In this document: positions 1 through 10,303 of the stretch, piece after piece
Layout of the letters: every line of letters begins with the position of its first letter
How positions within the stretch are numbered: position 1 is the stretch's first letter
DNA from: DATKZS01 sp035527835 [NCBI: bacterium]
GTDB lineage: Bacteria; RBG-13-61-14
Length of the DNA stretch: 11,387 nucleotides
Assembly (NCBI GenBank): GCA_035527835.1
Contig: DATKZS010000072.1
Location: 1-11,387 of the forward strand
Reading direction: 5' to 3'
The notes under the pieces: generated by a model
What the model was told of the DNA's origin: nothing
Seen by the model: the letters and a program-made list of their open reading frames with translations, nothing else
Databases searched by the model: none
Program-made: the position numbers and the translations under genes

Positions 1-73
1 CCTTGTCCACCAAGTGCCGCTTCAACACCCGTACCTTCTCCTCCGCCGTAAACCGTCTCCGCTTCCCTTCCAT
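1..73 (-). CDS. Transposase OrfA-like N-terminus (partial)
   Basis: Only the first 24 codons are present; the gene continues past base 1. The translation starts MEGKRRRFTAEEKVRVLKRH, the typical opening of the helix-turn-helix (HTH_Tnp_1/HTH_21) subunit of IS3-type transposases, where a basic RRRF(T/S)AEEK stretch leads into the first DNA-binding helix. A strong ribosome binding site AAGGAGG lies at 81-87, seven bases before the ATG. It overlaps the 3' tail of the restriction-modification reading frame in a different frame on the same strand. The IS3 assignment rests on this short peptide, so related families with the same HTH opening remain possible. Confidence 0.7.
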   Translation of the reverse strand, partial: MEGKRRRFTAEEKVRVLKRHLVDK

Positions 74-141
74 CGTCCCGCCTCCTTGTTCGTATAACTA
101 TCTTGGCGGCAGGACTCTCCATTTTCAACTGAGGCAGGACA
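1..141 (-). mobile_element. End of an IS3-like insertion sequence (partial)
   Basis: The first roughly 140 bases hold the transposase start and upstream end of an insertion sequence that continues beyond the left edge. On the minus strand the presumed terminus reads TGTCCTGCCTCAGTTG from about base 141 inwards. The octamer GTCCTGCC occurs twice near the end (minus strand, 133-140 and 108-115), 25 bases apart, which could be transposase-binding repeats. The boundary is inferred from where the restriction-modification protein stops looking like a natural C-terminus (around base 144) and from the TG start usual for IS3-family ends. The other end is outside the window, so neither inverted repeats nor a target duplication can be checked. 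Confidence 0.6.
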
Positions 142-3024
142 GCTCAGCCTTAATATATCAGCCATAACGTATTGATCAAGTATTTCACGATCAGGATTCG
201 ATATTTCTTCTTCAATAGTTCCAACCGGTCGTGATAACATATTTTTTAACCGCGGCAGGATGGTTTTTCCCCCATATTTAGGATCAAGGACAAACATCTT
301 TCGAATGTCGGTAGGATCAACCTTCAACATACCGCCGCCCATTCCAGTCCGGCCAGCTAATTCAAGAAACAACCAGCCAACCGGAGAATTGAAAAATGCC
401 CATAAAACCTCGGTTGTTTCGGGGTCATGCAATCTGATCTCTGTAAAGCTGTTGCTTGAAATCGCTTTTGCATTATTGAAAATACAATAAAAACTTTCCC
501 CTATCCCGCAAGGTAATAAAAGATCTGCGGGTTTCCTCGCGCCGAACTTATACCATTCTTTTTTATTAATAAATGTATTCCGAGTATTAATCTCCATGCG
601 CTCTCCATGTTTGATATAAGACAAAGCTCCTGTACCCTTTAATTTAGACTTGGCATCTTCAACCGTAAAAAAATATCTCTCAATTTTATCAGAAGATAAT
701 GTAAAATAATTGCTGCCGCGAGGTTTCATTAGTCCTGGACGCAAAAACCTTTTTTCGATTTTGTATTTATTAGCAATGTCTTTTTTTACATAAAAAAAGT
801 CATTTGCGCCAGTGGGCTTCCCCTCATTAACTTCTGCCAGGTTCCTTAAAGGCACAATCTTTCCTCGGGCTTTCTCCAGAATGGCAAAAAAGATTTCAGG
901 AGCACGAGTGTAATTTCCCCATTTTACTCCCATATATTCATTTTGCTGATTATATCCTTCTTCTCCGAGCTCTTCCTGTTTCTTAGGACGGATACGAAGG
1001 TCTTCATTCTCATATAAGTTGTCATGCGCCAGTATGGTTTTAATAAAACGGTCAATGGAGTGCAAACGATCTAATTGCTTTTCCCAGAGGTCTTTCGCCG
1101 GCGGTATGAAGTAATTAAGCGGCTTTTTCAAATAAACGAATCGCGTTAAATGATTATTGCGCTCTTTTTCATCCTTGTTTTTTTGAAGAATTACTATGCA
1201 GGTATTAACTTCTGCGGCTTCAAACCAGCGTTCAACCTGTGACTCGATGATAGCTATAATTTTATAGTTATCGAGAAAGAATGTTTGCAGTCCCTTTCCA
1301 TAATCAGCATCAAGCCATGAGTTGGCAACGATAAATCCCAAATAGCCGCCTTCTAAAAGCAGCTTGGTTCCATGAATGAAGAAGTAGACATGTATCCCGG
1401 CACGTTTTTCAATTTCCGCCATTTTCTTTCCGGATATATCGTGCAAGGCGTTTTCAATAAGATTCTCTTTATAAACAGCTTCTTGGCGTGAAAGTTCGCT
1501 GATTTGATGGTGTCGGGTATAAGGGGGATTTCCCACTATGGCGTCAAACCAACGGGGATATATCACTTCCCTATCACGATAACCAAGTGTTGCGGCCCTT
1601 GTCTTCCTCCAATTTTCTAAATCCAACCCCTCGTTGCCTACTCGAAAATCAAAAAAGTCCTGCTGGATGATATTGGGATAATTCTGAGCTGCCGAAAGAT
1701 CATTAATGGCGAGGTTTATAGTTGCAAGATGAGCTGGAAACTTTGCTATATCAGTTCCCCAGAGGGTTTCCAAGAGTTCCTCATGGCTTTTTATCTGGTT
1801 CATCATTTTTTTATGTTGGTATGCACGGACAAGGAAAGTTCCTGCCCCGCAGGAAGGATCAAGAATATGATCATCATCATGTTGAAGGCAAAAACGTAAA
1901 ATCAGGTCTACAACGTCAGGGCTGGTGAAATACTGTCCAAAATTATGCCGTTCTTCTGGAGGAATCAACTTCTCGAATATCCTCCCGATTATATCGTAAC
2001 CGATTTTGGAGAAATCATAGCGTTTCAAAAGTCTGACCAGTTTCTTTATCTCTTCAACAACCTCTTTAGACTCGGGGAAAGCCACACTGTCAATGAAATC
2101 AGTTGTATATACTGTTTCATAATCAATCTTGAGAACCTGTGTGAAGTATCCCTGCAAATATGCTTGAATCAATGCGCCCTTGCTTAAACCTTCAGGCAGC
2201 TCCATGGGATCAAGTTCTTGCGGCCTTTTGGCCTGCAGGAGGTTATAAAACAGAATCTTGTTTATAAGAAGGTAGGCGGTTTGCCTCGCCGTTTGATTAA
2301 AGTTCTCCTGGCTCCAGGTAAAATTCCAGTCCTGTTCCGAAAACCATTTGATAATTTTATTTGCGAAAGAAGAATCCTTATGGCAGAGGTCGTAGATGAT
2401 CTGGCTGTAATACCGGGAGAGTGTTTTGATTTTTTCGTAAAGTAGAAAAACAAGGAATTCGTCTATGGCCAATTTGGGTTCAAGTGCCTTTCCCGATTTC
2501 ACTTCAAAAAGTATCTTTAAGAAATGGATGAGTTCATTCTTAATTTGAGAGCTATATCTGGACTCTTCGAGGGTATCAAGATTTTCTAGCTCTGAAAGGT
2601 GAAATTTATCGACCAACTGTTCATCTTCAGGTTGTTGAGCGTTAGCCGATTCGGTTTTATACCAGAGCAATGTTTTAAAATTAGTGACGGCGAAATATTT
2701 TGCTTTCCTTTGATTCGCTTTTTTCCAAGCCGGTTCTTTAAGTTCTTTTTCGTTAAAGACATCAAAGTAAGGAGGTTTAGCTTCCATAACTAAAAGTACT
2801 TTATGGCTTCTTGGGGATTCATAGATAACAATGTCTGGGCTCTTTCGGTCTAAGCCGCTGGTGTCCACGTCGGGCATTCCGAGATCAAGATTTTTCTTTT
2901 CTATGATCTCTCTCATCCAATGCATCAGCACTCCGACCGCGGAGCGCTCGGTTTTTCTGGCCTCAATGCCGATCGTTTCAGGGATTTTGATGTCTTTTCC
3001 CTTAGCTATCCTTTTCTTGCTCAT
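22..3024 (-). CDS. Type IIG-like restriction endonuclease/N6-adenine DNA methyltransferase, 3' end altered by IS
   Basis: A 1000-residue single-chain enzyme expected to cut DNA and to methylate adenine at its recognition site. A PD-(D/E)xK nuclease motif is visible at the N-terminus: P63-D64, then E81-A-K83 after a strand of hydrophobic residues. A helical connector follows. The methyltransferase domain has the SAM-binding motif DPSCGAGTF at 389-397 and the catalytic NPPY at 499-502, so motif I precedes motif IV (gamma class). The last 300 or so residues would be the target-recognition region. The start ATG has AAGGAAG at 3031-3037 and lies inside the upstream RadC-like gene. From about residue 961 the chain becomes basic and low-complexity, because it is translated from IS DNA; the original C-terminus is lost. 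The gene is AT-rich compared with its neighbours, suggesting transfer. Whether the hybrid protein is active cannot be told. Confidence 0.85.
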   Translation of the reverse strand: MSKKRIAKGKDIKIPETIGIEARKTERSAVGVLMHWMREIIEKKNLDLGMPDVDTSGLDRKSPDIVIYESPRSHKVLLVMEAKPPYFDVFNEKELKEPAWKKANQRKAKYFAVTNFKTLLWYKTESANAQQPEDEQLVDKFHLSELENLDTLEESRYSSQIKNELIHFLKILFEVKSGKALEPKLAIDEFLVFLLYEKIKTLSRYYSQIIYDLCHKDSSFANKIIKWFSEQDWNFTWSQENFNQTARQTAYLLINKILFYNLLQAKRPQELDPMELPEGLSKGALIQAYLQGYFTQVLKIDYETVYTTDFIDSVAFPESKEVVEEIKKLVRLLKRYDFSKIGYDIIGRIFEKLIPPEERHNFGQYFTSPDVVDLILRFCLQHDDDHILDPSCGAGTFLVRAYQHKKMMNQIKSHEELLETLWGTDIAKFPAHLATINLAINDLSAAQNYPNIIQQDFFDFRVGNEGLDLENWRKTRAATLGYRDREVIYPRWFDAIVGNPPYTRHHQISELSRQEAVYKENLIENALHDISGKKMAEIEKRAGIHVYFFIHGTKLLLEGGYLGFIVANSWLDADYGKGLQTFFLDNYKIIAIIESQVERWFEAAEVNTCIVILQKNKDEKERNNHLTRFVYLKKPLNYFIPPAKDLWEKQLDRLHSIDRFIKTILAHDNLYENEDLRIRPKKQEELGEEGYNQQNEYMGVKWGNYTRAPEIFFAILEKARGKIVPLRNLAEVNEGKPTGANDFFYVKKDIANKYKIEKRFLRPGLMKPRGSNYFTLSSDKIERYFFTVEDAKSKLKGTGALSYIKHGERMEINTRNTFINKKEWYKFGARKPADLLLPCGIGESFYCIFNNAKAISSNSFTEIRLHDPETTEVLWAFFNSPVGWLFLELAGRTGMGGGMLKVDPTDIRKMFVLDPKYGGKTILPRLKNMLSRPVGTIEEEISNPDREILDQYVMADILRLSCPASVENGESCRQDSYTNKEAGRWKGSGDGLRRRRRYGC

Positions 3025-3331
3025 CCAATGCTTCCTTAATCAAGCGCCGCGCGATTTCAAATGCTGCTACGATTCTGATGATCTTAACGTCCCCAATTCC
3101 TCTGAAGGCCAGAAATTTTTCCACAGGGTGATTGCACATTCCGCGGAGCGAACCGAATTTGGTGATGATATCCTGGGCGATTTTTTCCGCGGGCCGGCCT
3201 TTAACCCCGGTTCCGATTAATATCGCCAGGAGTTCCGCTTCACTTAGCTTTTCCGGGCCAAGCTCCACCAGTTTTCCGCCCGGATGCTTCCAGAGAGGTC
3301 CGCTTTCCTCATTCTTTTTTTTACCGCTCAT
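3002..3331 (-). CDS. Stand-alone RadC-type N-terminal helix-hairpin-helix protein
   Basis: A 109-residue protein matching only the N-terminal (UPF0758) part of RadC. It has the LGPEKLSEAELLAILIGTG segment (23-41) and a helix-hairpin-helix around FRGIGDVKIIRI (76-87) that would bind DNA backbone. The C-terminal JAB/MPN metalloprotease-like domain of normal RadC, which is about twice as long, is absent. I chose ATG 3331 rather than an upstream in-frame TTG at 3343, because its ATG overlaps the folP stop as ATGA and is preceded by GGAAAG (3336-3341). Its last 23 bases overlap the start of the restriction-modification gene. The coupling suggests that it works with that enzyme, perhaps in DNA binding, but a truncated RadC remnant is the alternative. 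The calling of the fold is firm; the role is inference. Confidence 0.8.
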   Translation of the reverse strand: MSGKKKNEESGPLWKHPGGKLVELGPEKLSEAELLAILIGTGVKGRPAEKIAQDIITKFGSLRGMCNHPVEKFLAFRGIGDVKIIRIVAAFEIARRLIKEALDEQEKDS

Positions 3332-4545
3332 GGCTCTTTCCAATTATATCCGAGTTGAATCGCCCCCGCCATTTCCGCGTACCTCCTCATCCCCTTCACG
3401 TCATGGACCCTCACGATCTGCGCTCCGCTCATGATGCCGGCGACCAGGGACGCCGCGGTTCCCTCGAAGCGGTCGTCCTTGTCCGCGTTCAGCACGGCGC
3501 CGATGTAGGACTTGTTCGAGTGGCCGAGCAGGATGGGCCGGCCCAGCGTCCGGAGCCGCCACAGGTCCCGGATCAGCTCCAGGTTGTGCGCCACGGTCTT
3601 GCCGAACCCGATTCCCGGGTCCACGATGATGCTCTCCTCGTGAACGCCCGCGGCCATGGCCCGTTCCATGCGCAGAGCGAGGTACGCGATGATCTCGCCG
3701 AACAGGTCGTCGTAATGCGGGTCCTGCTGCATGGTCTTGGGCGTGCCCCGCATGTGCATGAGCACAAGGGCCGCGCCCGTGTCCGCCGCCGCCCTCGCCA
3801 TCTCCGGGTCAGTGAGCGCCGACACGTCGTTGATCATGGCCGCGCCCGCCTCCATGGCCCGCCTGGCCACCGCCGGCTTCACGGTGTCAATCGAGATGAG
3901 CGCGTCCGGCTCCGCGGCCAGCCGCTCGATCACCGGCAACACCCGCCGCGATTCCTCGTCATCGCTCACCGCGTCCGAGCCCGGCCGCGTGCTCTCGCCG
4001 CCCACGTCAACGATCCCCGCGCCGGCCTCCAAAAGCGTGAGACCCCGCCGGATCGCCGCGTCCTGGTCAAAATGCCGGCCCCCGTCGTAAAACGAGTCGG
4101 GAGTACAGTTCACGATGCCCATCAGCACCGGCGCTTTGCCCAGCGCCAGCTCTCCGCGCGGCGTCGGCACCGTGAACACCCGCCGCTCCACGCGGTCAAG
4201 GAACACGGCCAGGTCCGCCGCCAGCTCTTCAAGTCCGGGGCCCTGGCCCATGAGTTTCCCGCCAAGCGCCCGGAGCTGCGCGGCCGTTCCCATCAGGAGC
4301 ACGTCCGTCGGCCCGGACCCGCCCGCGTACACCTCTCCCGACACCGCCGCCTCGCCGCCCAGCATAAGCATCCGCTCCTTGATCACGGTCGCGGCCGGCG
4401 CCGGCACGGCCTCAAGCTTCGCGCAATAATGCCGCAGCTTGGGCGCCATGGCCTCGATGCCGTCCTCGTCCGCCTTGACCGCGGCAAGCCGCGACCCGGC
4501 CTCGGCGTCACTGCGCGCCGCGCTGAGATGCAGGTTGAACTTCAT
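3328..4545 (-). CDS. folP: Dihydropteroate synthase with N-terminal extension
   Basis: Joins 6-hydroxymethyl-7,8-dihydropterin pyrophosphate and p-aminobenzoate in cytoplasmic folate synthesis. In the 405-residue protein the TIM-barrel synthase starts near residue 138. It shows GIVNCTPDSFYDGG (143-156), DVGGESTRPG (180-189), SIDTVKP (218-224), INDVSAL (238-244), LMHMRGTP (262-269), DPGIGFGKT (309-317), GHSNKS (341-346) and the final RVHDVKGM (379-386). The first 135 or so residues form an extra domain, as in long FolP forms that I associate with Desulfobacterota and some archaea; typical enzymes have about 280 residues. The usual SRK of the pterin-binding loop is S-N-K here, so an arginine is replaced. 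ATG 4545 is preceded by AGGG; a longer reading with a GTG start at 4599 is less likely. First gene of an apparent three-gene unit ending in the restriction gene. Confidence 0.95.
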   Translation of the reverse strand: MKFNLHLSAARSDAEAGSRLAAVKADEDGIEAMAPKLRHYCAKLEAVPAPAATVIKERMLMLGGEAAVSGEVYAGGSGPTDVLLMGTAAQLRALGGKLMGQGPGLEELAADLAVFLDRVERRVFTVPTPRGELALGKAPVLMGIVNCTPDSFYDGGRHFDQDAAIRRGLTLLEAGAGIVDVGGESTRPGSDAVSDDEESRRVLPVIERLAAEPDALISIDTVKPAVARRAMEAGAAMINDVSALTDPEMARAAADTGAALVLMHMRGTPKTMQQDPHYDDLFGEIIAYLALRMERAMAAGVHEESIIVDPGIGFGKTVAHNLELIRDLWRLRTLGRPILLGHSNKSYIGAVLNADKDDRFEGTAASLVAGIMSGAQIVRVHDVKGMRRYAEMAGAIQLGYNWKEP

Positions 4546-5411: not shown

Positions 5412-5482
5412 ATTAACAGGGATATTCAGGAGGTCCAGGATAAAAAAGAATTATCCTGAATATCCTGTGAATCCCTGTTAAT
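5412..5482. repeat. Imperfect palindrome, GGATATTCA-unit family, copy 1
   Basis: Two 31-base arms (5412-5442 and 5452-5482) pair around a 9-base loop. Both begin ATTAACAGGGAT when read inwards and both end CAGGATA next to the loop. Inside each arm 9-10 base units beginning GGGAT or AGGAT follow one another, but in a different order in the two arms. It sits between the convergent acyltransferase and the small minus-strand gene and could serve as a bidirectional terminator. The second copy of this family is at 10158-10246. Confidence 0.85.
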
Positions 5483-5848: not shown

Positions 5849-5917
5849 GTAAAAAATGCAAGTTAGGCGATTTTTTTTTCAGGCATGGATCCGAGGGAGG
5901 GAACCCGTTTAAATCAT

Positions 5918-5998
5918 TTTTTCTCGCAAAGGCGCAAAGGGCGCGAAGAAAAAATATAATCTGAATTCTTTGCGGTCTTTGCGCCTTTGCGAGAAAAA
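5918..5998. repeat. Imperfect palindrome, GGCGCAAAG-unit family
   Basis: Arms 5918-5950 and 5965-5998 pair; 22 bases reading TTTTTCTCGCAAAGGCGCAA and the following AG are identical between the left arm and the complement of the right arm. Within each arm the 9-base unit GGCGCAAAG or a variant is repeated in tandem. It lies in the 416-base spacer between two divergent genes (starts at 5737 and 6154), upstream of the flavoenzyme promoter. The rest of this spacer holds only the two promoters and a T-run at about 5871-5879. Confidence 0.85.
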
Positions 5999-6038
5999 GG
6001 AATTTCAATCCAGTTCCCGGCATGGGGCCTTGTGAGGT

Positions 6039-6153: not shown

Positions 6154-8154
6154 ATGTTTAAGAAGCTGTTCAGCCCCATCCATATCAACAAGCTGGAGAT
6201 CAAGAACCGCATCGCCATGCCCGCCTTCGGCCTGCTCTATTGCGACAACCGCCGGGTCGGCGACCGCCTCATCAATTTTTACGAGGCGCGGGCGCGGGGC
6301 GGGTGCGGGCTGCTGATCGTGGGCGGCGTCGGCATTGAGATGCAAGGCTCGGGCGTGATCATGCCCACCATCGAGAGCGACGAGCACATCCCGGACTGGG
6401 AGCGCATGGCCGACGCCCTTCACAAGCACGGCGCCCGCCTCTTTCTCCAGCTCTTCCACTCCGGACGCTACATGCAGTCCATCCTGGCCGGCGGCCAGCA
6501 GGCCGTGGCCCCCTCCGCCGTCCCCTCCCGCTACACCCACGAAACGCCCCGCGCCCTGGAAAAAGACGAGATCCTTGCCGTCCAGGACAAATACGCCCAG
6601 GCCGCGGCCCGCGCCCGGAAGGCCCATGCCGACGGCGTCGAGATCATCGCCTCCGCCGGCTACCTCATCTGCCAGTTCATGTCGCCGCTCACCAACCTGA
6701 GGGAGGACGAGTACGGCGGCAACTTCGAAAACCGGTCCCGCTTCGGACGCGAGGTCCTGGAAAAGGTCAGGGCCGCGGTGGGCCCCGAATTCCCCGTGAC
6801 CATGCGCGTGTCCGGCAACGATTTCATGGAAGGCGGGAACACCAACGTCAACGCCATCGAGTTTTGCAAGGTGTTCGAGCAAGCCGGCGCCGACGCCTTC
6901 AACGTCACCGGCGGCTGGCACGAGACCCGGGTGCCCCAGCTCCCGGCCATGGTCCCCCGCGGCGCCTACACCTACCTGGCCGCGGCCATCAAGCGCGCGG
7001 TCAGCGTCCCGGTCTTCGCCTCCAACCGCCTGGTCGAGCCGGCGCAGGCCGAGAAGGTGCTCATGGACCGCGTCGCGGACATGGTGTGCATCGGCCGCGC
7101 CCAGATCGCCGACCCGGAGTGGGCCAAGAAGGCCTTCGAGGGCAAGACCGACGACATCCGTCCCTGCGTGGACTGCCTGCAGGGATGCATGGACCGGCTC
7201 TTCTCCGGCAAGCCTGTCGAGTGCCTGTGCAACCCGGAGGCCGGATACGAGGCCGACCGCCGCATCAACCGGGTGCGCAAGCCCAAGACCGTGGCCATTA
7301 TCGGCGCCGGGCCCGCGGGCCTCGAAGCCGCCGTCACCGCCGCCAAGCGCGGCCACCACGTCACCATCTTCGATCATGCCGACGCCATCGGCGGACAGCT
7401 CCCGCTGGTCGCGGCCCCGCCCGGACGCGAGGAGTTCGGACGGCTGCTCAAGTACTACCAGAAGCAGGTGCAGGGCCACGGCATCGCCTTGAAGCTGGGC
7501 AAGCAGGTCACCATGCAGGCCGTGCGCCGCACCCGGCCCAACATCGTGATCCTGGCCACCGGCTCGCGCCAGCTCGTGCCCGAGATCCCCGGCGTGGACC
7601 GCCCCGAGGTCGTGACCGCGTGGGACGCGCTCCTGGGCAAGGCCGACCTCGGCCGAACCGTCGCCGTGATCGGGGGAGGCGCCGTGGGCATCGAGACCGC
7701 CATCGCCATCGCCGACCGCGGAACCGCCTCCGGCGACACCATCAAGTTCCTGCTCAAGCACGACGCCGAGGACCACGAGACCCTGAAGCGCATCGCCACC
7801 TCGGGCGCCAGGAAGGTCACCATCATCGAGATGCTCCCCAAGATCGGCAAGGACATCGGAATGACCAACCGCTGGGTCTTCTTAAAAGAGCTGGACCTGC
7901 TGGGGGTGGACGTGCTGACCGAGGCCAAGGTCAAGGCCATCGCCGACGAGGGAGTGGTTTACGAAAAGGACGGCGAGACCCAGGCGCTGCTCGCCGAGTC
8001 CGTGGTCCTCGCCCTGGGCGCGGTGCCCAACGACGAGATCGAGGCGGAGCTCAAGAGCTCAGGCTTTCAATACATCAAGATCGGAGACGTCAAGCAGCCC
8101 CGCAAGATCATCGAAGCCGTGCACGAAGGATACCTGGCCGCCCTGGAAATCTGA
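6154..8154 (+). CDS. NAD(P)H-dependent FMN/FAD/4Fe-4S enoate reductase (2,4-dienoyl-CoA reductase family)
   Basis: A 666-residue cytoplasmic flavoenzyme of the FadH/enoate reductase/trimethylamine dehydrogenase family, which reduces activated C=C bonds with electrons passed NAD(P)H to FAD to 4Fe-4S to FMN. The N-terminal old-yellow-enzyme barrel (about 1-330) keeps the FadH-type catalytic residues Tyr170 in SAGYLI and His256 in GGWHETR. The cluster cysteines are 338, 341, 345 and 357 (C-x2-C-x3-C-x11-C). FAD binds at GAGPAG (384-389) and the nucleotide at GGGAVG (507-512). After the latter there is an insertion of about 25 residues (about 520-545) relative to E. coli FadH; I believe related oxidoreductases of anaerobes share it. 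ATG 6154 has AGGGAG at 6141-6146 and gives the family's usual length. Monocistronic; the substrate (dienoyl-CoA, enoate, aromatic intermediate) cannot be decided from context. Confidence 0.92.
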   Translation: MFKKLFSPIHINKLEIKNRIAMPAFGLLYCDNRRVGDRLINFYEARARGGCGLLIVGGVGIEMQGSGVIMPTIESDEHIPDWERMADALHKHGARLFLQLFHSGRYMQSILAGGQQAVAPSAVPSRYTHETPRALEKDEILAVQDKYAQAAARARKAHADGVEIIASAGYLICQFMSPLTNLREDEYGGNFENRSRFGREVLEKVRAAVGPEFPVTMRVSGNDFMEGGNTNVNAIEFCKVFEQAGADAFNVTGGWHETRVPQLPAMVPRGAYTYLAAAIKRAVSVPVFASNRLVEPAQAEKVLMDRVADMVCIGRAQIADPEWAKKAFEGKTDDIRPCVDCLQGCMDRLFSGKPVECLCNPEAGYEADRRINRVRKPKTVAIIGAGPAGLEAAVTAAKRGHHVTIFDHADAIGGQLPLVAAPPGREEFGRLLKYYQKQVQGHGIALKLGKQVTMQAVRRTRPNIVILATGSRQLVPEIPGVDRPEVVTAWDALLGKADLGRTVAVIGGGAVGIETAIAIADRGTASGDTIKFLLKHDAEDHETLKRIATSGARKVTIIEMLPKIGKDIGMTNRWVFLKELDLLGVDVLTEAKVKAIADEGVVYEKDGETQALLAESVVLALGAVPNDEIEAELKSSGFQYIKIGDVKQPRKIIEAVHEGYLAALEI

Positions 8155-8182
8155 TCTTCGCCGAAATGACGCGGAGTTTGAT

Positions 8183-8522
8183 AAGCGCAAAGGCGCAAAG
8201 AACACAAAGAAAATTAACACTCTTGTCCAAAATAGGCCGTAAGAAAACCGCCAAGACGCCAAGAGCGCCAAGGGTCGCCAAGTAGATCATGATGTTTCTT
8301 TGCGGCCCGGCAAAGAACAGCTCCGGAGCGTTGGCCCCAACCGGCTTGGCGAACCGGCCGACGGGAGCGCCAAGCCGGAAACTTTCGCACCCAAGCCCTG
8401 TTAAAATCGTGTTAAAAAATAATCCTTGGCGCTCTTGGCGTCTTGGCGGTTCTCCGATCCGTTTATTTGGGACAGCACTGGAAAATTAATTAATCTTTGC
8501 GTTCTTTGCGCCTTTGCGCTTT
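8183..8522. repeat. 340-base compound palindrome combining two unit families
   Basis: Fills most of the 377-base gap between convergent genes; no credible gene is inside. The left arm (8183-8273) and the right arm (8424-8522) pair along nearly their whole length. The outer third is made of GCGCAAAG units, the middle third is a less conserved AT-rich linker that still pairs (TCTTGTCCAAAATA against TGCTGTCCCAAATA), and the inner third has CGCCAAGA-type units with 27 identical bases (ACCGCCAAGACGCCAAGAGC and the next seven). The 150-base centre holds further hairpins. Could act as a terminator for both flanking operons, or be a MITE-like or REP-like element. Confidence 0.85.
8341..8378. repeat. 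Perfect 11-base hairpin in the centre of the compound palindrome
   Basis: CCGGCTTGGCG (8341-8351) and CGCCAAGCCGG (8368-8378) are exact inverted copies with a 16-base loop. The stem reuses the CGCCAAG unit of the inner arms. A smaller stem, CTTTGC...GCAAAG around 8300-8317, reuses the other unit. Confidence 0.8.
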
Positions 8523-8531
8523 CAAATCTTT

Positions 8532-9095
8532 TTACTTGAACGGAGACACCGGGAAGCAGTACTTCTTGATCTCGTCGTCGCCGGCACTCTTCCAGTCGCC
8601 CACCCGGAGCAGTTGCGCCTGGTCAATGATCCAGAAGTTGTCCTCGTCCGTGAACGTCACCTGGTAAACGTAGCGCGGGTCCACGCGGGAAAAAATGTCC
8701 TTGAGGTATCCGGCCAGGACGTTGGTCTGGGGCATGTTATAGGTGTTCACGAAAATCCGGAACTCGGTGAACCGGTCCACGGTCACCCTGATGTCGTACT
8801 CATTGGGCATCACGGCCCGGCACAGCTTCTCCAGCACCAGCTTGATGTCCATCCGCGGATCGAACGCGATCCGGTCAATCTTGGTGGTCCCGTACTTGGA
8901 CTGAAGCTCATCCTCCTGCTCGCTCCTGCGCTCCGCGTCCTCTTCCCTCCATTGGTCCTTGAGCGTGGCGATGGTCTGGTCCTGGCCGCCCCCCATGTGG
9001 TTCCGCGACCACAAAAACCCGATGGCGATGAAAAGGTGCAGGACCGCGGCCCCGAGCAGCACCAGGGCCAACTGCTGTATCTGTTTCGTGTCCAT
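8532..9095 (-). CDS. Membrane-anchored protein of unknown function (187 residues), second of pair
   Basis: I do not recognise a named family. One hydrophobic segment (about residues 9-29) anchors the N-terminus, followed by a charged, probably coiled-coil linker (about 38-70) and a compact mixed alpha/beta domain (72-187), expected outside the cytoplasmic membrane by the positive-inside rule only weakly. The segment VLEKLCRAVMP...IRV...FRIFV (87-115) and AGYLKDIF (128-135) resemble AVKKIAKLACP...IRVEIAF and AGIMKDVF in the protein encoded just upstream, so the two look like diverged duplicates. Its ATG shares one base with the preceding stop (TGATG), pointing to translational coupling. The general plan (single anchor, coiled coil, periplasmic domain) resembles inner-membrane assembly subunits such as PilN/PilO-like proteins, but no specific motif supports this. 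Confidence 0.75.
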   Translation of the reverse strand: MDTKQIQQLALVLLGAAVLHLFIAIGFLWSRNHMGGGQDQTIATLKDQWREEDAERRSEQEDELQSKYGTTKIDRIAFDPRMDIKLVLEKLCRAVMPNEYDIRVTVDRFTEFRIFVNTYNMPQTNVLAGYLKDIFSRVDPRYVYQVTFTDEDNFWIIDQAQLLRVGDWKSAGDDEIKKYCFPVSPFK

Positions 9096-9931
9096 CAGAA
9101 TCCCTTTAACAGAGCCGGGAACTGGTCCCGTCTCTTGTTCCAGACGTTTTCTATTTCGGGCCGCGAAAGCCTGAGCCAGTCGCGGCCGCCCGGCGATCCG
9201 TAAACGATGAACAAGTCCCGGATCTCCCGGGTGGTGGTCCCTTGTTTCTTCACTCGCTCCAGGTTCTGGCAGGTGATGGTGAGCCCGGAGATGCCGCGGC
9301 CCGCCCCGAACGCGAACACGTCCTTCATGATCCCCGCCGCCATTTTCTGGACCTCGTAATAGTAGCCGGGAAGGTAGTTGAGCAGGTCCGGGTGCGCGTC
9401 AACCACCGCCTTGTAAGGGAAGGCGATCTCCACGCGGATCCCGTTATTTTCCGGGTAAACCCCGATCCCGGAACCCGGAGGGCAGGCCAGCTTGGCGATC
9501 TTCTTGACCGCGTCCGCCGGCGCCAGCTCCGCGTCCTCCCCGATCGCCTTCATCTTCAGCATGGCCTTTTCCGTTTCGCTCCGGCCAAAGGCGGGGTCAA
9601 GTCTCTGGCGCCGCGCGAATTCCTCGTCACGGTGCTTGCCCGCCAGGTTCTCGCCTTGCGCCCGCTTCGCCAGCTCCAGCTCCTGCTCGAACTTGGCCTG
9701 GTTCTCGTTCACCTGGAGCATGCGGGTGTTCTTCAGCGCCTGCAGCTCCTGCTTGACCTTGCCATGGAACTGGACCGCGCCCACGACCTGGATCAGGAGG
9801 TGGATCAAGATCGTGGCCGCGCAAGCGATGATGGCGCCGAGCAGGATCACCTTCTCCCGCTCCATGGCCATCCGCGATTTCACCGCGCGCTTCGGTTCCT
9901 TGGTCTTCTTCGTGGATATGGTCGGGCTCAT
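9095..9931 (-). CDS. Membrane-anchored coiled-coil protein of unknown function (278 residues), first of pair
   Basis: Not assigned to a known family. A basic N-terminus (1-26, many Lys/Arg) precedes a single transmembrane helix (about 28-53), so the remaining chain is probably outside the cytoplasm. Residues 56-110 are rich in Gln, Glu, Lys and Leu and look like a coiled coil. A globular domain follows (about 118-278), with ADAVKKIAKLACP (139-151), GIRVEIAFPYKAV (164-176) and AGIMKDVF (199-206), which parallel segments of the downstream gene product. It contains two Cys (150, 221) in the presumed exported part. A ribosome binding site AAAGGAT (9937-9943) is six bases or so from ATG, and a consensus -35 lies behind it. 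Two-gene operon with the downstream paralogue; divergent from the deacetylase gene. Confidence 0.8.
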   Translation of the reverse strand: MSPTISTKKTKEPKRAVKSRMAMEREKVILLGAIIACAATILIHLLIQVVGAVQFHGKVKQELQALKNTRMLQVNENQAKFEQELELAKRAQGENLAGKHRDEEFARRQRLDPAFGRSETEKAMLKMKAIGEDAELAPADAVKKIAKLACPPGSGIGVYPENNGIRVEIAFPYKAVVDAHPDLLNYLPGYYYEVQKMAAGIMKDVFAFGAGRGISGLTITCQNLERVKKQGTTTREIRDLFIVYGSPGGRDWLRLSRPEIENVWNKRRDQFPALLKGF

Positions 9932-9982: not shown

Positions 9983-10032
9983 CAGGGGACGTAAAATTTA
10001 TTTTGGATAACATGCGTACGCAATTTTTAGCC

Positions 10033-10141
10033 ACGGATGAACACGGATCAACACGGACCAAAAAGAAGTAAGAAGCAGGAACCCGGAATTCGGAAGCTGC
10101 CATGCTTGCTTCTTGATTCTCCTTGATCCGTGTTCATCTGT
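10033..10141. repeat. Imperfect palindrome, CGGATGAACA-unit family
   Basis: The outer arms are 10033-10053 and 10120-10141: GATGAACACGGATCAA is present in the left arm and in the complement of the right arm. The left arm is a tandem of the 10-base unit CGGATGAACA/CGGATCAACA. A second, inner pairing joins AAGAAGTAAGAAGCA (10062-10076) with TGCTTGCTTCTTGATTCT (10103-10120). It lies in the 448-base spacer between the divergent membrane-protein and deacetylase genes. Confidence 0.8.
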
Positions 10142-10157
10142 CATGTTCGACTGGCCC

Positions 10158-10246
10158 AAAGAATGAATGAACAGGGATGCACGGGATATTCAGGATAAGA
10201 AAGTCTTATCCTTGGCATCCGGAATATCCTTGTTGATAAATTCTTT
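10158..10246. repeat. Imperfect palindrome, GGATATTCA-unit family, copy 2
   Basis: Two 43-base arms (10158-10200 and 10204-10246) pair around a 3-base loop; both begin AAAGAAT and end AAGGATAAGA or CAGGATAAGA at the loop. In the left arm the order is GGGATGCAC then GGGATATTC; in the complement of the right arm it is AGGATATTC then CGGATGCCA, so the internal units are swapped. Same family as 5412-5482, which shares AACAGGGAT and ATTCAGGATA. The remaining 130 bases up to the deacetylase gene hold only its putative promoter and ribosome site. Confidence 0.85.
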
Positions 10247-10303
10247 GGTTGCGGCCTGGCGCCGCGCCGGGTCAATCCGCGGTTCCCTTCTTCACTCCCC
10301 TGA

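Follow-up and report, generated by a model that had tools for sequence, protein, structure and literature searches.

Inverted repeats between genes have been described in several bacterial systems. A 2009 paper on Geobacter metallireducens (PMC2700814) described pairs of sites lying on opposite strands, divided them into classes 1-3 and called them putative sites of IHF/HU or of a global regulator; multicopy intergenic families, some of them palindromic, were noted in G. bemidjiensis (PMC2996986). In the 23S rRNA IVS of Coxiella, three tandem heptamers are described upstream of the S23p ORF (PMC4990558). REPIN/REP sequences with their RAYT partners and the prokaryotic MITEs are further points of comparison. 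The GxxExxY protein, which became central to the present analysis, has been reported as a domain beside a reverse transcriptase gene. In the literature searched, with many subscription papers outside its scope, no link between GxxExxY (TIGR04256/PF13366) and arrays of the kind described below was found; a search for the unit strings, most subscription papers again lying outside its scope, found nothing related.

The window, as the whole stretch of 11,387 nucleotides analysed here is called, contains at 8183-8522 an element that an earlier note had described as a giant nested palindrome built from two unit types, with a centre reusing both. This anatomy was confirmed. The outer arms (8183-8210/8494-8521) form an inverted repeat of 28 nt with 96% identity, and the inner arms (8243-8273/8424-8454), an inverted repeat of 31 nt with 97% identity, are nested within them. 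The outer arm follows the formula CGCAAAG-G-CGCAAAG-AA-CRCAAAG and the inner arm CGCCAAG-A-CGCCAAG-AG-CGCCAAG, the right arm being the mirror of the left in each case. Both layers thus have the plan U-N-U-NN-U, that is, inverted arrays of CRCNRA(G/T) heptamers at 8/9 spacing, and the spacer bases between units are identical between the arms in the outer and in the inner layer. Units of both types recur in the core (CGCCAAG at 8276 and 8368, CTTGGCG at 8345, CTTTGCG at 8298). The element occupies most of a 377-bp gap with convergent genes on either side, and its parts are as follows.

8183..8210, plus strand: outer left arm, CGCAAAG-G-CGCAAAG-AA-CACAAAG array (inverted-repeat search, sequence)
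8211..8242: left linker, weak complement of the right linker (32/1000 shuffles as good)
8243..8273, plus strand: inner left arm, CGCCAAG-A-CGCCAAG-AG-CGCCAAG array (inverted-repeat search, sequence)
8274..8423: core between the inner arms (fold, sequence)
8289-8489: ORF of 66 aa overlapping the core (no Pfam family matched)
8296..8318: small core hairpin reusing CTTTGCG/GCAAAG (fold and sequence)
8341..8378: core hairpin, CCGGCTTGGCG...CGCCAAGCCGG (fold and sequence)
8424..8454, minus strand: inner right arm, CGCCAAG mirror array with spacers A and AG as on the left (inverted-repeat search, spacer comparison)
8455..8493: right linker (linker alignment)
8494..8521, minus strand: outer right arm, CGCAAAG mirror array (inverted-repeat search)

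The folding check proposed with the earlier description supported it. Folding of 8150-8550 as RNA predicted a minimum free energy of -188.4 kcal/mol (z -12.1), which none of 100 shuffles equalled. The claim of a pairing linker held only in part. The linkers (8211-8242 and 8455-8493) were paired in the predicted fold but were weak taken alone: as high an alignment score arose in 32 of 1000 dinucleotide shuffles and in 4 of 307 39-mers from the window.

The window holds four further palindromes of iterated short units (5412-5482, 5908-6008, 10031-10145 and 10156-10248), listed here with the two neighbours of the element.

5412..5482: palindrome of CAGGGAT/CAGGAT units, assigned to the class only by likeness to the flanks of locus L034
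5908..6008: single-layer palindrome of CGCAAAG/CGCGAAG units, of the same class as 8183-8522
6154-8154, plus strand: Oxidored_FMN-family gene, left neighbour of the element
8532-9095, minus strand: ORF without a Pfam match, right neighbour of the element
10031..10145: palindrome of CACGGATGAA units, which also occur beside the GxxExxY gene at locus L253; similar to locus L048
10156..10248: palindrome of CAGGGATG/CAGGAT units, assigned to the class by resemblance alone

None of the nine window proteins scanned matched GxxExxY, so the partner of the window copy was not seen. None of the nine matched PF05635, and the 8/9 spacing of the element differs from that of the 7-bp arrays of the IVS/PF05635 kind. 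Positions 1-75 read on the minus strand like what we take to be the start of a transposase (MEGKRRRFTAEEKVRVLKRHLVDK), and the end of the Eco57I-like gene at 22-3024 may therefore run into an insertion sequence. A short ORF at 3002-3343 has the UPF0758 (RadC-type) N-terminal domain only and overlaps the start of the restriction-modification gene.

Searches of the genome contigs with the oxidoreductase and a lineage-specific protein (9095-9931) as queries revealed no close relative of the window. The best full-length match to the oxidoreductase there was 43% identical, with one partial match at 49%, and the best among 20 whole genomes was 48% identical; the lineage-specific protein had no relative in the contigs, nor in the 41 genomes searched out of the 45 unit-bearing ones introduced below. 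A plasmid search gave a single weak match of 32 bases, in Nostoc. Since no close relative was found, the conclusions rest on kin of the class and not on the window copy, and it was in these kin that anatomy, dispersal, presence and absence, replacement, framing of GxxExxY genes and co-variation of nuclease and unit were observed.

The pattern CGCCAAGNCGCCAAG was present in 45 of 395 genomes sampled from the phylum of the nearest match; its reversed control gave at most 5 matches per genome. One of the 45, G309, has 48 CGCCAAG sites (26 forward, 22 reverse), and four site pairs that were read out proved to bound layered elements of about 180-205 bp. Their plan is an outer CGCCAAG-N-CGCCAAG-NN-CGCCAAG array, a linker, an inner CGGAGAG/CGCAGAG array and then the mirror image. 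Together with its sister genome G269, the examined DNA of G309 contained 70 elements with both unit types, in 54 of which (38 and 16) AAG units lay outside and GAG units inside; the plain reverse order was found in none and partial or mixed orders in 16. Palindromes of a single type were also present, 9 with AAG units only and 12 with GAG units only, the latter count being low because the G309 DNA was sampled around CGCCAAG sites. The layering looks stereotyped and, since AAG-only and GAG-only palindromes coexist with nested ones, modular. The proposal of a real layered element is thus upheld by elements of like plan in other genomes.

These kin are dispersed, and they differ between related genomes. 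Near-full-length copies of one element of about 200 bp (locus L079) were found dispersed in G309 and G269 at 86-92% identity. At the place of the L079 element the gap is 13 bp in a third genome, G227, compared with 226 bp in G309, between flanks 74-80% identical. Comparison of 26 orthologous places in G309 and G269, drawn from about a third of G269 and having flanks mostly 90-98% identical (one 87%), gave by our reading 12 that keep a recognisable element, 6 with both arms in another unit, 3 from which it is absent in G269 and 5 that are rearranged. Five of the six replacements were of CGCCAAG in G309 against CACCAAG in G269, in both arms together, and the L090 pair, a further case, showed the same switch. 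Two of the three G269 absences hold other repeat arrays (judged by eye). One clean absence, in G269 (C10), concerns an element of 174 bp (L179:17952-18088 in G309) with the ends GGCCGCCA/GGCCCCCA; these repeats are short and imperfect, and the difference could be a loss by deletion rather than an insertion. No consistent target-site duplication was found in the kin, and deletion is another possible reading of this one clean empty site. Clean empty sites between G309 and G269 were also seen for two other families of short insertions, of about 165 bp and 150-160 bp (L168, L171, L175, L181, L182).

Genes of the GxxExxY family (PF13366, TIGR04256) were found in 12 of 17 unit-bearing genomes searched, which were mostly the richer of the 45, against 1 of 11 others chosen by number (Fisher p 0.002); the remaining 5 of the 17 gave no match. 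A motif-free test for arrays was applied to the flanks of these genes, scoring a 7-mer that recurs exactly at a distance of 8 or 9 bp and whose complement is likewise present within the 250-bp flanks. Arrays were detected at 22 of 30 PF13366 loci (30 of the 32 listed matches), equal to 21 of 28 distinct genes when two double-listed genes were merged. The same test was positive in 70 of 3000 random G269 windows and in 23 of 645 windows placed off the gene in PF13366 and PF05635 loci; as control windows overlap one another, p-values are rough. It was positive at 3 of 30 PF05635 loci and at none of 30 Y1_Tnp loci, both sets being the best 30 of longer lists. By individual lag, PF13366 loci were positive at 8 (16 loci), 9 (14 loci) and 13 (1 locus), and lags 7, 10-12 and 14 gave no positive locus. 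The favoured spacings are thus 8 and 9 bp, as established by the lag test independently of the spacer search.

The association extends beyond this phylum sample. The GxxExxY family occurs in 75 of 148 Bacteroidota genomes sampled, and the exact-array test was positive at 11 of 33 Bacteroidota loci (the best 30 of a longer list and 3 more); of 373 other windows in the same loci, 16 were positive. A degenerate test called for at least 2 inward CRCNRA(G/T) units on each side of the gene. In Bacteroidota it was positive at 21 of 33 loci, and in the first PF13366 set at 11 of 21 (9 of its 30 being excluded as fragments, cut contigs or gene repeats: L035, L051-L053, L057-L061). Among the plasmid loci 2 of 5 were positive, and among the PF05635 loci 1 of 26 (4 of 30 excluded). 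The background was 6 positives in 523 control placements and 18 in 4000 random placements. Among the plasmid loci (5 of 7 matches examined), units lay on both sides in Bacteroides finegoldii, Bernardetia and Gemmatirosa, Sphingomonas had a left array only and Treponema had single units; in the four annotated plasmid cases the gene stood between its neighbours and was co-directional with them. Three GxxExxY loci from IMG/VR, a viral collection, also had inverted units around the gene, as judged by eye. One of these contigs (L252) carries a framed gene at 2090-2600 and, about 1.2 kb away, a gene-less palindrome at 3810-3930, and CATTCACCACAA is common to three of the four ends of the framed gene and the palindrome. 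Phage records gave no match in a tblastn search with one GxxExxY protein.

The GxxExxY protein has about 125 residues. All 23 full proteins recovered from 25 loci tried contained D..ExK and QxxxY, neither of which had been a condition of selection (G..E..Y had). The invariant columns of a 22-sequence alignment were G24, G26, E29, Y32, D69, E79, K81, Q93, Y97 and N110. We take the combination of D, ExK and QxxxY to be a RecB-type signature. No known function of the family was found in the literature, and we know of no tested activity. Searches of the PDB with one protein and with a 22-sequence profile returned no credible relative, and PADLOC gave a weak partial match (E 5e-4) in one of three GxxExxY proteins. 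A structure model built from three IMG/VR sequences had a mean pLDDT of 40.7 and was discarded.

A single intergenic site was compared across genomes using the 11 of 16 fetched loci (L285-L300) with both flanks, five single-flank loci being excluded. Its neighbours are presumably a MeaB-like GTPase gene and an epimerase gene. Four genomes carry different GxxExxY genes there, each within its own arms: CACCAAG in G269, CGGAGAG/CGCAGAG in G309, CGCAGAG in G227 and CGCGGAG/CACGGAG in G423. The genes of G269 and G309 differ strongly between flanks that are 95-96% identical. The site is nearly empty, with gaps of 62-92 bp, in G407, G408 and G415, and in G128 the left alignment stops early and a short gap is left. 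G409 has a PF05635 gene at this site, in what by eye are 7-bp arrays, and G397, again by eye, a short gene-less GAG palindrome; G402 has other DNA.

The similarity of GxxExxY proteins was correlated with that of their arms over 59 loci (Mantel test, r 0.37, reached in 0 of 2000 permutations) and within each of the two main groups (r 0.34 for 20 loci and 0.38 for 32 loci, 0 of 2000 each). The residue that follows GxG also tracked the last base of the unit: phenylalanine occurred with T 10 times and with G once, and leucine with T once and with G 37 times (p 1.4e-8; 10 of the 59 loci excluded). The split persisted in a set thinned at 70% identity (9/1/1/33, p 1.4e-7), and the exceptions were L046, with F and CGCCAAG arms, and L246. 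Both tests overstate independence, because the Mantel set includes near-identical pairs and the F/L division may be one clade split. As read from these sequences, and with neither test tree-corrected, nuclease type appears to co-vary with unit type.

PF05635 genes, which encode a four-helix bundle (23S IVP) and which we take to be the S23p family, were often seen framed by inverted arrays with a 7-bp period (L184-L213; for example L189, L191, L196, L205 and L213). Arrays at lag 7 or 14 were found at 14 of 30 PF05635 loci, against 8 of 387 off-gene windows and 21 of 2000 random G269 windows; by individual lag, 10 of the 30 loci were positive at 7, 12 at 14, 3 at 8 and 2 at 12. The 7-bp arrays of PF05635 are a second, parallel system. 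The heptamers described before the S23p ORF of Coxiella (PMC4990558) fit this result.

Taken together, these comparisons make it probable (about 0.6) that 8183-8522 belongs, as a composite form without a gene, to a widespread GxxExxY-linked family of mobile elements between genes, with mobility suggested by genome comparison. The ends of such elements would be inverted arrays of about three CRCNRA(G/T) heptamers at spacings of 8 and then 9 bp, with about 10 bp in some elements. Coding members would have one small gene for a putative RecB-like PD-(D/E)XK nuclease (GxxExxY, TIGR04256/PF13366) enclosed by the arrays; in non-coding members no gene separates the two facing arrays, which makes them a palindrome. 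Alone or with a partner, the cognate nuclease may recognise the arrays, and its cutting could allow the element to be copied or swapped into other sites through repair. Gene-less palindromes would be carried along, as is thought for REPINs with RAYTs. The nested form may have begun with the insertion of one element into the loop of a second, or with a fusion at that loop, and may afterwards have spread as a composite.

A broader proposal, to which we give rather less than even odds, is that these elements constitute a new class of prokaryotic mobile element. Its sole protein would be a RecB/Cas4-like nuclease recognising inverted heptamer arrays, its coding and palindromic non-coding copies would spread between genes, the nuclease would co-evolve with the units, and the class would share landing sites with the unrelated PF05635 four-helix bundle family in its 7-bp arrays. 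The elements have a fair chance of being their own kind. If the tie between GxxExxY and heptamer palindromes is true, it would suggest a role for a family present in about half of the Bacteroidota genomes sampled, would explain much puzzling intergenic DNA and would point to a spread of DNA without a known transposase.

GxxExxY might instead be a homing-type parasite that inserts into existing palindromes, which themselves spread by another route. At L045 and L049 the gene stands between two separate palindromes instead of splitting a single one, and unit sites far outnumber genes (in G309, 48 CGCCAAG sites and 2 PF13366 matches), as this reading would have it. The genes of L043, L050 and L055, however, are framed by one array per side, nuclease lineage and unit type co-vary, and genomes that differ in the gene at the shared site also differ in its arms, other relatives having a gap of just 62-92 bp. 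We regard such a parasite as unlikely.

Whether the two arms are kept alike was examined at the bases between the units. In 27 elements with CGCCAAG arms, two of them from the window, the spacers of the two arms agreed at 1.15 of 3 positions, compared with 1.30 when arms were dealt out at random (4334 of 5000 shuffles reached the observed value), and in 20 elements with CACCAAG arms at 1.25 compared with 1.19 (2035 of 5000). Eight elements with CGCAAAG arms leaned the opposite way (1.88 compared with 1.38; 259 of 5000). The element sets overlap, one mismatch per unit was allowed, and as units and spacing were required the test bears on the spacers only. Spacers of the two arms thus agree no better than chance in the larger sets, and pairing seems to be a side effect of having two arrays in inverted orientation. 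Kept units with free spacers would be expected of a pair of inverted recognition-site arrays.

Free spacers also suit sites bound by a nucleoid protein or a global regulator of the IHF/HU-like kind; such sites would have been spread or retained for their part in regulation, with GxxExxY genes merely landing nearby. This is the published reading of the opposite-strand pairs with three tandem TCTCCGTS[Y] in passages on G. metallireducens (PMC2700814). The context of the elements in G269 argues against it: 12 of 21 lay between tandem, 4 between convergent and 5 between divergent genes, much like all 496 intergenic gaps (266/109/121), by crude longest-ORF gene calls and with six clusters inside ORFs excluded. 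Units moreover change at the same places between sister genomes, and unit type follows nuclease type. Regulatory sites seem to us unlikely, slightly more so than a homing parasite.

That one arm was copied from the other by local fold-back template switching, with no mobile element involved, is improbable. The spacers of the window copy do agree between arms in both layers, and the small CGCAAAG set leans toward agreement, but agreement is at chance in the larger sets and near-full-length copies are dispersed. The same data bear on the earlier note, which had taken linker pairing to mean an origin as one palindrome or selection on structure. Neither alternative gains support, the linker pairing being marginal and the spacer agreement of the 27 elements being at chance. 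As to the compensatory changes it had suggested looking for, both arms can switch unit together (CGCCAAG in G309, CACCAAG in G269); spacers of the CGCCAAG and CACCAAG sets are at chance, with the eight-element CGCAAAG set leaning the other way.

A long bidirectional transcription terminator or structured RNA, its pairing under selection, is more doubtful again. The fold is very stable and the window copy lies between convergent genes. Against this, the kin in G269 showed no enrichment at convergent gene ends, where intrinsic terminators are expected, by the same crude gene calls; their context, which resembles the intergenic background, argues against their acting as terminators and supports the earlier note in setting the element apart from simple terminators. 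In addition, the arms agree at spacer bases no better than chance in the two larger sets, and an Rfam scan of the window gave no match at the gathering score. Least credible is the REP/REPIN type, with a RAYT (Y1) transposase as its mover. Many-copy inverted doublets in intergenic DNA speak for it, as do Y1_Tnp matches in 17 of 17 unit-bearing genomes searched, but arrays lay within 250 or 600 bp of none of the best 30 Y1_Tnp loci fetched from these genomes, and RAYT gained no support as mobiliser.

The preferred reading, a gene-less composite member of a GxxExxY-linked mobile family, can be set beside the known systems. Prokaryotic MITEs (reviewed in PMC10969869) are likewise short, non-coding inverted-repeat elements dispersed between genes, and the present element is short with terminal inverted repeats, as seen in the window copy, and dispersed, as seen in its kin; unlike MITEs, however, these elements have no identified transposase partner and showed no consistent target duplication. 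The 23S rRNA IVS with S23p (PMC4990558) shares the feature of one small ORF in a selfish element, but differs from the present elements in protein family, in its 7-bp period and in its siting in rRNA genes. In G. metallireducens (PMC2700814), the three tandem TCTCCGTS[Y] of class 2 are the complement of the CGGAGA units found here and have the 8/9 spacing, and the tandem heptamers of class 3 resemble the 7-bp system linked to PF05635; the term 'GxxExxY' does not occur in the main text of that paper, and its passages on these sites contain no proposal of mobility. The likeness to REPIN/REP sequences and RAYT (TnpA-REP; PMC3116915, PMC8266576) lies in the many small intergenic inverted doublets, non-coding beside a single-gene partner, and in the matching of partner groups to repeat groups. 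The partner here, however, is a RecB-like PD-(D/E)XK nuclease by its signature, whereas theirs is a Y1 HUH transposase, and the elements described here have array ends of about three heptamers, nested layers and fast-changing units.
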